34,427 nucleotides of DNA. It comes from a virus. Both the position numbers and the translations under genes were made by a program. Positions 29,978 to 33,743 of the stretch are shown here, one piece after another. Where the stretch lies: the IMG/VR virus record IMGVR_UViG_3300017917_005114, positions 1 through 34,427 of that record; one strand, 5' to 3'. Under the pieces are notes generated by a model. The model ran no database searches. It saw nothing but the letters and a program-made list of their open reading frames with translations, and had not been told where the DNA came from. Every line of letters starts with the position of its first letter. The first letter of the stretch is position 1.

Positions 29978-30100
29978 ACAACCATCAGCTGTAAGCTGAA
30001 GGGTTCGAAGTTTGCTAACGCAAAACTTCCTTTCGACTTAGTCGACTAAAGCCTCTTGTCGCCTGCAAGGCGAGGGATTTAAACCCAAGACAAGAGACAT
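29975..30100 (-). mobile_element. Possible IS200/IS605-type right end / TnpB-RNA-like relic
   Basis: Read on the - strand the segment ends with a hairpin (29982-30002, CCTTCAGCT / AGCTGATGG, one mismatch) followed by GTTGTTCAG, the organisation of IS200/IS605-family right ends. Upstream of it are a hairpin GAAGTTTGC/GCAAAACTTC (30007-30029), a perfect palindrome TTAGTCGACTAA (30038-30049), and a compound stem CTCTTGTC/GACAAGAG (30053-30096) enclosing GCCT-gca-AGGC and GGG/CCC. It is GC-richer than its surroundings. No transposase or tnpB is adjacent, so it would be a stranded end or a passenger-less element. Confidence 0.4.
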
Positions 30101-30219
30101 TAACGTTCAGATAAATACCTAAAACATGAAAAAAGATAACTTCCGCATAGCATATGACCTAGAGAATAGGAATACTGATGGTTTTCAACCATTGAAAGAG
30201 ATATTTAGTAAACTACAAA
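30101..30219. other. Intergenic spacer
   Basis: No supported gene. A frame of 33 codons (30126-30227) is present on the + strand, but it overlaps the end of the opposite gene and lacks a ribosome-binding site. Nothing else stands out. Confidence 0.3.
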
Positions 30220-30534
30220 TTATTTAAAAAGTGCAATTAAAATAGCGATGTTACTTATTAATACAGTTAAAAACAAAGGAATCATCCATTTTAAAATATC
30301 AGATTTTACTTCAGATATATCGGTTTTTGTAGCCATAGTTTGTTTAATTACAGCTAGATCAGTTTTGATATCTGATTGTTCTTTTTCAAGGTGAGAAAAT
30401 TGCTCCTTAGTAACATAATTCTCATTATTATTACTACTATTTAAAAAAGCCTTACCTATTATTTCTGATGGTTTTTGTGGTAAACCGCCTTCCATAAGTT
30501 CTTGTATTAATTGATGTGTATCTACTCTGGCCAT
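30220..30534 (-). CDS. DUF1640/CCDC90-like coiled-coil membrane protein
   Basis: From ATG 30534 (AAAGGATAAT upstream) the product has 104 residues. An in-frame ATG at 30618 would add 28 residues of unlikely sequence. The pattern is an N-terminal helix pair (RVDTHQLIQELMEGGLPQKPSEIIGKAF, compare 'dt...ir.L...Gl...qAe.i...l'), a coiled coil (THLEKEQSDIKTDLAVIKQ), then ATKTDISEVKSDILKWMIPLFL and a C-terminal membrane helix. This is the small DUF1640/CCDC90-like type common in alphaproteobacterial phages and plasmids. Function unknown. Confidence 0.6.
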   Translation of the reverse strand: MARVDTHQLIQELMEGGLPQKPSEIIGKAFLNSSNNNENYVTKEQFSHLEKEQSDIKTDLAVIKQTMATKTDISEVKSDILKWMIPLFLTVLISNIAILIALFK

Positions 30535-30837
30535 ATTATCCTTTCTAATCCAAAAATGAGGTAAGCTAGGACTAAGTCGGTAAACCGCAAAGACACCCCG
30601 CATGCAGCGGACGTTCACTTACCCTCGTATTACTATAACACGAAACCAAGCTTAGTTCTATAGGCTTTTTAGGCGTGCGTATACTAGTATACGTCAATGT
30701 TTCTGCTAGTAGAAATATTATTTAAGCTAGCAAAAATAATGTGGCAAAAAATCCTCATTACCCCCCCCCCACGATTTTTTAGATACCACACAAACAAATT
30801 AAATTCCCTAAATATTTATTTTACTTAAGATTGAGAG
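30535..30837. other. Palindrome- and homopolymer-bearing intergenic region
   Basis: No gene is seen in these ~300 bases. On the - strand leader of the DUF1640-like gene are CCGC-tgcat-GCGG and CGG-ttta-CCG hairpins (about 30555-30611). CGTATACTAGTATACG (30678-30693) is a perfect 16-base palindrome. TGCTAG/CTAGCA (30704-30732) is another inverted repeat. AAAAAATC (30746-30753) pairs with GATTTTTT (30773-30780) around a run of ten C (30761-30770). Confidence 0.5.
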
Positions 30838-31021
30838 TTGACAGGGTTTTGTCTATTAGCTAGCGTTAAATAGCTAATGGTGCTTGATACCCACTGTTGC
30901 GAGCAACCTCTCATGCTAGGGGTTATGTTATCTATAAGTGCTTCTAGCATGAAGGATAACATGGGTTTGCAACAACTGTATCAAAGCCCCTGGCACTTTC
31001 ATCAATTAAATATAGTAATTT
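30838..31021 (+). promoter_or_regulatory. Structured leader with pseudoknot topology
   Basis: TTGACA at 30838-30843 is a good -35, but the matching -10 (TAGCGT, 30861-30866) is weak. ATTAGCTA/TAGCTAAT (30855-30878) is a perfect hairpin. Downstream CATGCTAG (30912-30919) pairs with CTAGCATG (30944-30951), while ATGTTATC (30925-30932) pairs with GATAACAT (30955-30962). The order A-B-A'-B' can form a pseudoknot or two alternative folds. An outer arm, 30882-30900 with 30969-30987, closes the whole. It ends shortly before the gene at 31022. Confidence 0.45.
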
Positions 31022-31303
31022 ATGCAAGACTCAGATTCATGGGAGGTAGTCGTATCCTCTATTGTAGATCAACTTAAAAATATTGAAACAATCTTAGAAA
31101 ACAAAAATTCAAGCGTAAGAGAATTCATACAAGAAAATGGCGATAAAGCTTGCCCAGCTATTCTAGAAGCACAGCTTAAGTCAACGCAAGTCTCATTTGA
31201 GAGGATGGAAAATAAGCTGCACGATATGATTATTTATTTATGTCGTGCGATGACAGTAAGTAAGGTTCATCAGTTAAGCAATTTACTTGGGGAGGAATCA
31301 TGA
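31022..31303 (+). CDS. Small helical protein under structured leader
   Basis: A 93-residue, probably all-helical protein (WEVVVSSIVDQLKNIETILENK, LKSTQVSFERMENKLHDMIIYLCRAM) with a single cysteine pair and no signal peptide. No ribosome-binding site precedes ATG 31022, but the structured leader ends about 35 bases upstream. Its stop overlaps the next ATG. I do not recognise a family. Confidence 0.55.
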   Translation: MQDSDSWEVVVSSIVDQLKNIETILENKNSSVREFIQENGDKACPAILEAQLKSTQVSFERMENKLHDMIIYLCRAMTVSKVHQLSNLLGEES

Positions 31304-31404
31304 ATTGGAATGACGATGATCCGTTTATAAAGTGGGGGACTAGGATTCACATAGTCACATTTTTGATAGGTACACCACTACTTTTTTATTTAATATTGGG
31401 GTAA
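31300..31404 (+). CDS. 34-residue membrane micro-protein, copy 1
   Basis: ATG 31300 overlaps the preceding TGA and has GGGGAGGA upstream, strong support for translation. The product starts MNWNDDDPFIKWGTRI, an amphipathic acidic head, then one short membrane helix (IVTFLIGTPLLFYLILG). It is a near relative of the next gene (same length and 'D-D-P-F-x-K-W-x-T-R-I' core). Confidence 0.6.
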   Translation: MNWNDDDPFIKWGTRIHIVTFLIGTPLLFYLILG

Positions 31405-31406
31405 TT

Positions 31407-31517
31407 ATGGAGTGGAACTCAGATGATCCATTCGTGAAATGGGTTACTAGGATTTATGTTATAGGAGTATTGATCGGGATGCCTACAGCTTATTATTTGA
31501 TATTAGGGAAGTTATGA
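31407..31517 (+). CDS. 36-residue membrane micro-protein, copy 2
   Basis: Two bases after copy 1, ATG 31407 opens a 36-residue product (MEWNSDDPFVKWVTRI, then YVIGVLIGMPTAYYLILG). It shares about half its residues with copy 1, including the SDDPF/DDDPF head, TRI and LILG. The pair is an evident tandem duplication. The ATGA overlap with the next gene (31514) places it in one operon. Function unknown. Candidates are a small membrane toxin, a lysis or an exclusion peptide. Confidence 0.6.
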   Translation: MEWNSDDPFVKWVTRIYVIGVLIGMPTAYYLILGKL

Positions 31518-31774
31518 AAAGATTTTTAGTATTGATATTTCCTATTGTATTAACAAGTATTTTTTTCCTGTTAAACTTATTATTAGCATATAGTTTAACT
31601 GAAAATTGGGTTTTACAAATAATAATAGGAACAATTGGTATAATTTTATTCATGTATGGAATGGTCTATACTGGGATTGATGACTACTATTATGATAATG
31701 AGAGTCATCAGAAAGTAATAAATAAATGTAAAATATTAAAATCCAAAATAATTAATCTATTATCAAGGGGTTAA
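31514..31774 (+). CDS. Two-pass membrane protein
   Basis: An 86-residue protein with two hydrophobic helices (residues ~3-27, FLVLIFPIVLTSIFFLLNLLLAY, and ~33-53, LQIIIGTIGIILFMYGMVY), a tyrosine/aspartate-rich turn (DDYYYDNES) and a lysine-rich tail. Last of a four-gene run. Overlaps the stop of the opposite-strand gene by 4 bases. Not a recognised family. Confidence 0.5.
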   Translation: MKRFLVLIFPIVLTSIFFLLNLLLAYSLTENWVLQIIIGTIGIILFMYGMVYTGIDDYYYDNESHQKVINKCKILKSKIINLLSRG

Positions 31775-32391
31775 TCATTTTTGAATTTATTTGAGGTATC
31801 TTTATGCATGATATTCATGATATTTACCAGTAAATTAATATTATCTATACATCTTATGTTATTATTGTATTCGTTCATTTCTACTAATCGCATAGATTGA
31901 TCGAATTGAATTAAATTTAATTTAGCTTCTATTATTCTTTCGTTATCGTATCCTCGTTTATTTACTCTTAAAATTTCTAAAAATCCTATTTCTTCTAGTA
32001 TGCTGATAATTCTTGCTAACGTATTTCTCTTTTTGATTTGACTAAGTATTAATAACTTTCTAAATTCCAAGATAATATATATTGATGAACCAGTGGCCTT
32101 TATATCTAAAAAACCATCACTTAAATTCCATATTAATTTACTTGACGATTCTTGAAGTAAAGCTGATAAAACTGCTTTAGCTTGTCTCTTTAAGTAATTT
32201 AAGAGTTTATATTTACTGTCGTTTAAACAAAAACAGAATTTATACCAATATTTAGGATTGTTAAGAAATCGATATTTTTTATAAAGACCCTCATTCTGTT
32301 TTTCTAATTCCAAAAAAAAATCAATAAAGTATCTCTCTCTTCCAAGTTTACTAATATTTCTAATTTCACTCATATAACAAGTTTTTTCCAT
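31771..32391 (-). CDS. Putative winged-helix replication/regulatory protein
   Basis: A 206-residue basic protein. Residues ~105-160 show a winged-helix outline: LEFRKLLILSQIKKRNTLARIISILEEIGFLEILRVNKRGYDNERIIEAKLN. The 'TLARIISILEEIGFLEI' part is a recognition helix and the following strands are the wing. The N-terminal 90 residues are aromatic/lysine-rich (KYWYKFCFCLNDSKYK). No known Rep signature, but its architecture resembles the first part of the DnaA-like protein. Located 42 bases downstream of the transporter gene. Confidence 0.5.
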   Translation of the reverse strand: MEKTCYMSEIRNISKLGRERYFIDFFLELEKQNEGLYKKYRFLNNPKYWYKFCFCLNDSKYKLLNYLKRQAKAVLSALLQESSSKLIWNLSDGFLDIKATGSSIYIILEFRKLLILSQIKKRNTLARIISILEEIGFLEILRVNKRGYDNERIIEAKLNLIQFDQSMRLVEMNEYNNNIRCIDNINLLVNIMNIMHKDTSNKFKND

Positions 32392-32432
32392 TCAACTTGC
32401 TTCTAATCCAGAAGCATTTAGTATTCTATTTT

Positions 32433-33743
32433 TTAAAATTTTACATAATAATTTCCGTTTTCTTTTTCAATTTTTATAAATTCGAATACTCCCCATGTAT
32501 ATACGATAGTAATCACTAAAAAAATAATAAATACTCCATATACTCCAATCATATTATTCATATAATCCATACCAAGTGAAGTTATTATGTATAAAAAAAC
32601 ATGAGCCGTACCATTTAATAATGCAGAAAATTTAAAACGTTCTAGAGTGCCAAAACTCATCATAAATACTCCCTTGGCAGGTACAGTAGAATTACCTAAT
32701 AGGACAACTAAAACTTGAATTAATAATAAAAACGAAGAGGAGTCTGCTATAGTTAATAAATATGGCAAAATGAATATAAAAGGAAAGTATAAAAATAACT
32801 TGAATTTAAGAATTTTAAGAGGGTGAATAAATTTTGTAAGATATATCCAACAAAATAATCCAGATAAATTAAATAAACCTAAAATTAAATTTTGATGAAT
32901 TACCATTTCTTTAGTAAATCCAAAACTTTTTTGTAGAATATTTCCGCAATATACATAGGAAAAATAGAAAGATATAGGCCAACCGCAGAAAACGCAAAAA
33001 TAAGCAAATTTTATTCTGAATGTAGCAATATATAATAGACTTTTTAAACCTCTATTAACTATTTGTTGCCTACCATTTTCTTGGTTTGAATTTATATTAA
33101 GAAATTTTTTTAACTTGGTTTGAATTTGCAAAAACTCTTTTGATTCAATAAATCTTAATCTTATAAAAAACCCTAAAAAGATAATTGTTGTTCCAAATAA
33201 AAAAGCAATTCTCCAGTTCAAGTTAAAATATAAAATAAGTTTTACTAAAAACAATGATATTACTGTTCCTATTACCCCAGCATAAGATACAAGAGCAGTA
33301 GAAAAATACCTTTTAGGTATAGCTATATTTTCTGCTATATATATTTCTGATGCATTAGTTTCTCCAATAGATGCAAAACCTTGAAATAAACGACAAATAG
33401 TTAGAATTACAAAAGCTGAAAATCCTATTTCTTTATAACTAGGTAACAATGTGATTATACCACTACAGGTACCCATTAAAATCATACTAAAAATCAGAAC
33501 TTTCTTTCTGCCCCACCTATCTCCAACCCAACCCCATGTCAAACCTCCTAGTGGTTTTAGAGCAAAAGTAGAACAAAAACTGATTGCAGCCCCATATTGA
33601 ACAAGCCATGGAATTGTAGGATCAAGAAATAGTTCATTAAGTATTGATGCCATATGAACGTACAACATAAGGTCAAAGTACTCTATGAATGTTCCTATCA
33701 TTAATATTAAGCGATTAAATTTATAGTTTTGATGTGTGTGCAT
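32433..33743 (-). CDS. MFS transporter, ProP-like metabolite:H+ symporter
   Basis: A 436-residue 12-helix transporter. The metabolite:H+ symporter signature is clear: FIEYFDLMLYVHMASILNELF at the first helix, ALKPLGGLTWGWVGDRWGRKK (residues 62-81; the family's 'RPLGG...G..GDR.GRK' loop), and LFQGFASIGETNASEIY ('R..QG...GGE...'). Mid-length loops fit. Rickettsia carry many proP paralogues, including on plasmids, and it probably imports osmolytes or amino acids. Whether it is cargo of this element or marks a boundary is open. Confidence 0.8.
   Translation of the reverse strand: MHTHQNYKFNRLILMIGTFIEYFDLMLYVHMASILNELFLDPTIPWLVQYGAAISFCSTFALKPLGGLTWGWVGDRWGRKKVLIFSMILMGTCSGIITLLPSYKEIGFSAFVILTICRLFQGFASIGETNASEIYIAENIAIPKRYFSTALVSYAGVIGTVISLFLVKLILYFNLNWRIAFLFGTTIIFLGFFIRLRFIESKEFLQIQTKLKKFLNINSNQENGRQQIVNRGLKSLLYIATFRIKFAYFCVFCGWPISFYFSYVYCGNILQKSFGFTKEMVIHQNLILGLFNLSGLFCWIYLTKFIHPLKILKFKLFLYFPFIFILPYLLTIADSSSFLLLIQVLVVLLGNSTVPAKGVFMMSFGTLERFKFSALLNGTAHVFLYIITSLGMDYMNNMIGVYGVFIIFLVITIVYTWGVFEFIKIEKENGNYYVKF

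Follow-up and report, generated by a model that had tools for sequence, protein, structure and literature searches.

Type I toxin mRNAs, among them hok, fst/ldr and SprA1, have structured leaders with YUNR loops. In the passages on hok/Sok cited here, such loops speed sense-antisense pairing (PMC6562991). Translation of repZ of IncIα plasmids depends on a pseudoknot that lies 5' of the ribosome site, and an antisense RNA prevents formation of this pseudoknot (cited passages of PMC8383071); for IncK, the sections cited describe loop changes that alter compatibility (PMC10724649). As far as these two sources are drawn on here, the repZ/repA leaders of IncIα, IncB and IncL/M share a 5' hairpin whose loop pairs with a downstream strand near the ribosome site, which gives the pseudoknot (PMC8383071, PMC10724649).

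We studied a leader with a comparable arrangement in a 34.4-kb IMG/VR record (34,427 nucleotides, analysed over its whole length and called the window). Judging from sequence comparison, the approximately 125 bases directly 5' of a small gene on this phage-like plasmid are an uncatalogued folded RNA. As in the IncI-type leaders, a 5' hairpin loop has its complement further along, ahead of the target gene: the loop of the first hairpin, Q, carries the 5' strand of arm P1, which matches the P1' strand in 164/164 Watson-Crick cells (22 members, arms picked by eye). Extrachromosomal carriers and a loop sequence that differs between types are likewise common to both, on the IncI side according to the cited parts of PMC8383071 and PMC10724649. 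Unlike the IncI-type leaders, the RNA described here has no conserved leader peptide frame (10 members examined), is not followed by a rep gene (the product of the next gene, P93, has no family match and the other downstream genes are unrelated to it) and contains an additional conserved core consisting of A, B, H and C'. To our knowledge, this core has no counterpart in IncI-type leaders. By analogy, the leader may work like the IncI-type pseudoknot leaders, but it is not a member of that group. With type I toxin mRNAs it shares the structured leader, a YUNR loop (17/22 members, Q loops counted by eye) and short predicted membrane peptides in the window operon, whereas here the peptides are encoded by the second and third genes and are not always present, and other members precede proteins without such peptides. 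The combination of a conserved core with alternative pairing near the ribosome site is reminiscent of translational riboswitches, but there is no metabolic theme and no Rfam match, and only mobile elements have so far been found to carry the RNA. Regulation in obligate intracellular Rickettsiales and their phage-plasmids is hard to study, and to these the leader adds a family of structured RNAs that is not yet catalogued and is strongly supported by comparison.

Table 1 Features of the leader RNA and the following genes (positions in the window)
Feature	Position	Strand	Description
Predicted sigma70-type promoter	30838-30866	+	TTGACA 30838-30843, spacer 17, TAGCGT 30861-30866; start 30873; consensus match only
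Inverted repeat	30855-30878	none	ATTAGCTA..TAGCTAAT; overlaps -10 box, possible operator
Structured leader RNA domain	30873-30996	+	lead GCTAATGG to CCCCTGGCAC; match of covariance model R1 and 22 distinct related RNAs
Hairpin Q	30879-30895	+	GGTG 30879-30882 with CACT 30892-30895; loop holds P1 5' strand
Arm P1	30884-30984	+	TTGATAC 30884-30890 with GTATCAA 30978-30984
Arm P2	30895-30974	+	TGTTGCG 30895-30901 with TGCAACA 30968-30974
Possible long-range helix E	30906-31047	+	ACCTCTCATG 30906-30915 with CATGGGAGGT 31038-31047; encloses start codon
Segment A	30912-30922	+	CATGCTAGGGG; can pair with 30941-30951 or, via GCTAGGGG 30915-30922, with 30987-30994
Arm B	30925-30962	+	ATGTTATC 30925-30932 with GATAACAT 30955-30962
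Local hairpin H	30938-30950	+	GTGCT 30938-30942, loop TCT, AGCAT 30946-30950; contains most of A'
3' motif C'	30987-30996	+	CCCCTGGCAC; partner of A, alternatively of lead GCTA 30873-30876
P93, 93-aa protein	31022-31303	+	predicted two-helix hairpin; model pLDDT 79; helices 6-42 and 45-88
34-aa peptide	31300-31404	+	MNWNDDDPF...; one hydrophobic stretch; peptide family copy in 10/10 loci examined
36-aa paralogous peptide	31407-31517	+	MEWNSDDPF...; in tandem with 34-aa peptide

The first-pass annotation of this DNA had proposed a structured leader with interleaved pairing that could be matched to no known class. Indeed, positions 30820-31030 fold at -68.1 kcal/mol, compared with -48.3 ± 4.2 kcal/mol for shuffled sequences (z -4.72), and none of the 200 shuffles equalled this value. 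A search against Rfam 15 at the curated threshold gave no matches for the window or for the related loci L071, L079, L083, L088 and L089 (the best weak matches had E 2.6 or worse), in agreement with the earlier statement on class. Likewise, no description of the leader RNA was found among the papers listed by a literature search.

Relatives of P93 were present in 12 viral contigs, and together with the window this makes 13 P93 loci, all of which have the RNA upstream. Using DNA patterns and covariance models, we additionally found L056, where the RNA precedes a P93 with an altered C-terminus, and the loci L071 and L079 (both on Megaera plasmids), L083, L088, L089, L092, L094 and L096, which brings the number of distinct related RNAs to 22, window included. 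Model R1 matches positions 30873-31010 of the window, which was part of its training set. L071 was matched with E 0.008 by the first model and with E 3e-9 by a second model that had not been trained on it; among the 12 Megaera plasmids searched whole, two carry the RNA. One pattern scan returned 31 stretches, 23 of them new, and 3 of the new ones matched R1 well. A later scan returned 17 stretches and added L088 and L089, L087 being a chance match and L090 being left out of all counts; a further scan returned 23, of which 8 were new and 5 real (L092, L094, L096, L097 and L098). L097 and L098 have the same RNAs as L092 and L096, respectively, and each pair was counted once; L091, L093 and L095 represent a single chance sequence. 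L090 (9949-10088) is a decayed copy of the RNA whose 5' half is intact and which has lost C' and the downstream gene. The weak model matches L072 and L073 were judged from their alignments to be due to chance. P93-like stretches were also seen in four Megaera plasmids (E 1e-4 to 4e-7); those inspected (L074, L076) proved to be other coiled-coil proteins, and a search of L074-L077 with R1 revealed no RNA. There was no match in a collection of genome contigs searched by protein and by pattern, nor in phages and plasmids searched by DNA with the window as query.

The -35 box of the predicted promoter reads TTGACA in 15/22 members and TTGATT, TTGATA or TGAACA in the other seven, and in all 22 the end of a -10-like box is followed after 4-7 nt by the first conserved base. 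Transcription therefore likely starts at about 30873, with the predicted start on this base, close to the position near 30870 that had been guessed before. The perfect hairpin noted earlier in front of the paired segments does exist (ATTAGCTA 30855-30862 and TAGCTAAT 30871-30878), but it straddles the predicted -10 box, so that it is mostly promoter and most of it is probably not transcribed. This inverted repeat is broken in L007 and imperfect in L017, and it could possibly serve as an operator. As noted before, the gene at 31022 has no Shine-Dalgarno sequence immediately upstream (inspection by eye). Over the four helices counted in a manual 14-member alignment there are 49 G-U cells and only 2 A-C cells, both of them in P2, for which the alignment of L005 and L034 is poor. 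As far as sequences can tell, this excess of G-U favours an RNA read on the plus strand over a DNA element or the opposite strand. We discarded the possibility that the leader is a coding sequence, as stops and indels break the open frame at 30877-31077 in a comparison of 10 members. Upstream of the promoter (30750-30780), the window contains a run of C's adjoining AATGTGGCAAAAAATCCTCATTA, which is kept in several relatives and varies in length.

Four segments in the order A-B-A'-B' had been read in the window, and we found them exactly there: CATGCTAG (30912-30919), ATGTTATC (30925-30932), CTAGCATG (30944-30951) and GATAACAT (30955-30962), surrounded by the outer arm that we call P1. In the cell counts the arms were picked by eye for each member, which inflates the percentages, and the tests on fixed columns and with swapped strands are fairer. 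Counted in this way over the 22 members, P1 occurs as 12 different helices, Q is canonical in 117/117 cells (12 helices), B in 162/166 (13 helices) and H in 110/110 (8 helices, including AGTAC/GTACT in L094). P2 could be drawn in 16/22 members, with 14 helices, and was not drawn in L071, L079, L083, L092, L094 and L096; an earlier count had joined the P2 arms of L005 and L034 from two pieces, while the 22-member count used one piece. The arms of P1 and B change letters yet stay paired. As the P1 strand sits in the loop of Q, these two elements together could form an H-type pseudoknot.

The pairing of B with B' is thus conserved as proposed, but that of A with A' is not: it is found in 209/220 cells with a good complement in 20/22 members, and it fails in the divergent members L071 and L094, where 4/10 and 6/10 pairs are bad. 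These two members put a hairpin of other letters at the A' site (GTGCCCGAGGGCAC in L071 and AGTACTCTTGTACT in L094), which shows that the conserved role of this site is hairpin H. The motif CCCCTRGC (30987-30994) is present and pairable in 22/22 members, and its pairing with A (176/176 cells, 22/22 members, four versions with one-sided changes only) crosses P1 and P2. C' can alternatively pair with the first four bases of the RNA, GYTA, with 88/88 cells canonical. The partners are therefore mutually exclusive on two counts: A can bind either A' or C', and for C' the choice is between A and the lead. The interleaved geometry of a pseudoknot or switch, which the first-pass annotation had recognized, persists, but with other partners, as A pairs with the 3' motif instead. 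A pairing between J4/A' (AAGTGCT) and GGCACTT, which lies 3' of C', was rejected, because most members have AAATGCC there, which gives an A-C mismatch with the fixed C.

In a 10-member MAFFT alignment, 96.9% of the 258 cells of the structure with A-A' and B-B' were paired, and all slid versions scored far lower; 17 cells were changed on both sides, compared with a mean of 4.7 after shuffling (0/500 shuffles as high). On fixed columns, both candidate structures exceeded 500/500 shuffles in cells paired, double-changed cells and covariation score, and also all slides. The number of pairs changed on both sides was 7 in the version with A-A' (1/500 shuffles as high) and 8 in the version with A-C' and H (0/500), whereas the 'further pair types' were not above shuffles in either structure in this 10-member test. 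The double changes lie in P1 and B, with one in H, and none in A-A' or A-C'; compensatory changes, named beforehand as possible support for pairing of the four segments, are in this alignment seen in B and not in A-A'. In the strand-swap test, where the best stem of each member is compared with that formed after its strands have been exchanged between members, the score decreased from 7.4 to 3.7 for P1 (Watson-Crick only) and from 8.0 to 5.7 for B (with G-U), with a modest drop for Q (5.9 to 4.9). Helix E forms in the computed closed fold of the window, but we do not regard it as a conserved feature, as its own stem (6.9) shows no real gain over swapped strands (6.4). Comparison of the relatives shows the RNA itself and the strand on which it is read, together with P1, P2, B and H as its helices, and shows that the element is portable.

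As judged from the sequences, the RNA stands before at least five unrelated small genes. These encode P93 (14 members), a 91-aa protein (L088), a 78-aa protein (L083), a 120-aa HTH_3 protein (L094) and a 59-aa family (L079 and L089 by BLASTP; L092/L097, L096 and L098 by eye). BLASTP among the P93, 91-aa, 59-aa and 78-aa kinds returned known family links only; the HTH_3 protein was outside this comparison. P93 has no family match in Pfam, PHROG or PDB. Behind it follow tandem single-span peptides (M[EN]WN[SD]DDPF[VI]KW...), of which relatives keep one or two copies and for which Pfam and PHROG gave no match. Among members with P93, mean identity is 86.8% for the 43-nt core and 73.2% for the P93 gene, the core being higher in 71/91 pairs. 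The window and L017, for example, share 93% of the core and 56% of the P93 gene, while the reverse is true for the window and L002, L003, L005 and L034, where the P93 gene is more alike than the core. In L071 the downstream gene was lost to rearrangement: at 1660-1690 (NZ_CP104168) a 5'-truncated tyrosine recombinase gene is joined a few bases past the start codon following the RNA, and the fragment matches an internal part of an intact copy on the sister plasmid at 99% identity. We rejected a link with the Tn3-type recombinase at this locus, since the gene was truncated and fused at this point, and the RNA is missing in front of three intact homologues. As the pairing is kept in 22 distinct relatives despite differing downstream genes, the leader seems to be a portable RNA switch of gene expression. 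One leader in front of five unrelated gene families also offers ready natural fusions for asking what it senses.

We propose, with confidence that is evenly divided, that 30873-30996 is a cis-acting regulatory leader RNA which can take up either of two global folds in competition and thereby governs how the next gene is translated. The leader would be made from its own promoter and run into this gene. In a rod fold, the P1 5' strand would pair near the 3' end with P2 stacked on P1, and the downstream ribosome entry region would be left free. In a closed fold, A would pair with CCCCTRGC, with hairpins B and H inside, and Q at the 5' end would display the P1 strand in its loop; the segment before A could then pair with the Shine-Dalgarno sequence or the start region. 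Refolding of the closed form into the rod would begin when the Q loop pairs with P1', the sensing part (for an antisense RNA, a protein or a ligand) may be the conserved A/B/H core, and the switch would set translation of whichever small gene follows, in the window P93 and two membrane peptides. By nearest-neighbour estimates without pseudoknots, the rod differs from the closed fold by -4.1 kcal/mol in the window and by -14.3 (L088) to +8.6 kcal/mol (L071) over 19 members, the closed fold being lower in 4/19. For the window, the computed closed fold joins the segment before A to CATGGGAGGT inside P93, so that the start codon lies enclosed. In all eight members without P93 the closed fold raises pairing of the Shine-Dalgarno sequence; the rise is small in most and clear in L083 (0.52 to 0.98) and L092 (0.65 to 0.98). 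Two folds of similar energy and a more paired Shine-Dalgarno site in the closed one make us prefer a cis-acting translational switch, and from these we infer the switch, its direction and its translational output. Against it count the P93 gene, which has no Shine-Dalgarno sequence, and helix E, whose masking stem does not exceed swapped strands. Furthermore, since A-C' varies by one-sided changes only, its conservation may have another cause, including pairing of C' with the lead.

The same hairpin-loop arrangement would be expected if the leader were controlled by antisense RNA in the style of plasmid copy-number systems or type I toxins, with a counter-transcript from the opposite strand that prevents the P1 pseudoknot by binding the Q loop, and with the many loop sequences as specificity types. 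The 7-9 nt loop strand with its complement downstream in 12 versions, the YUNR motif, the phage-plasmid and plasmid carriers and the short single-span membrane peptides of the window operon all agree with such control, as does the minus strand of J4, where a hexamer resembling a -10 box (TATAnn or TATGAC) is present in 19/19 members then known. However, this hexamer lacks a conserved -35 box (2-3 of 6 matches), which makes it a doubtful antisense promoter, no terminator was seen by eye, the downstream genes differ and none is a rep gene, and the same covariation would be expected of a plain cis arm; we therefore regard antisense control as a serious but less likely alternative. Copy-number control, which had been named as a model before, is not supported here, because the downstream gene is no recognizable rep gene, an antisense promoter was not established and the RNA precedes unrelated genes. 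With slightly less conviction still, we would speculate that the leader represents a new pseudoknotted class spread by phage-plasmids of intracellular Rickettsiales in which the P1 loop and strand, an interchangeable pair (12 versions so far), are a specificity code read by counter-transcripts or co-resident elements. Related elements would in this way sense one another and determine how strongly an exchangeable cargo gene is expressed. If so, symbiont phage-plasmids would have an RNA means to recognize each other.

In a ligand-binding riboswitch, the A/B/H core would be a small-molecule aptamer and the remainder the expression platform. A core that is kept while the arms vary freely, alternative folds and portability before unrelated genes would suit this reading, but with no metabolic theme common to these genes, mobile elements as the only carriers and no Rfam match we judge it unlikely. 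It is improbable, to a slightly greater degree, that the RNA serves as a binding site for the protein encoded behind it (autoregulation) or acts in trans as a stand-alone RNA with a protein such as P93: although the 13 P93 loci found by protein all carry it, P93 is modelled as a simple helical hairpin, and the at least five unrelated proteins behind the same core argue against a single cognate downstream protein. A DNA element, such as a recombination, replication or packaging site with RNA-like palindromes, would account for the mobile carriers, for the weak model matches on the reverse strand (the arms being palindromic) and for the recombinase fragment beside L071. We consider it very improbable, because G-U pairs far exceed A-C, the conserved promoter points through the RNA, and the gene beside the RNA of L071 is truncated and came to lie there through a later break, while three intact copies of this recombinase lack the RNA. 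The cis-acting translational switch is thus our preferred reading.

The RNA is carried by phage contigs and Ca. Megaera plasmids, among the latter CP113875 of strain NDG2 and NZ_CP104168 of SAG 25.80. In the window, virion and tail-like genes lie to the left (our own reading of the genes), and a ParA-family ATPase, a DnaA_N-domain protein and an MFS transporter are also encoded. The DnaA_N protein had tblastn matches in 11 plasmid records, all from Ca. Megaera/Megaira, and the best matches of the MFS protein are plasmids of this group as well; the host is therefore probably a Megaera-like member of the Rickettsiales, as far as these matches indicate. On plasmid CP113870, terminase, RecT and YqaJ-like genes stand beside the DnaA-like gene, so that the label 'phage-plasmid' fits. 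Behind the leader operon (31771-33743 in the window, and in L002-L008 and L016), variable cargo was observed that resembles a cargo hot spot, with MFS- and solute-symporter-like transporters, among others. A coiled-coil protein resembling CCDC90 is encoded at 30220-30618 of the window; its C-terminal part contains a hydrophobic stretch, and the Pfam match (E 1e-7) falls just short of the cut-off. Proteins that look similar occur near the RNA in L056 and L083. Further inverted repeats, for example CTCTTGTC..GACAAGAG, are found in the intergenic region at 30001-30110, behind a tRNA_anti-like gene.
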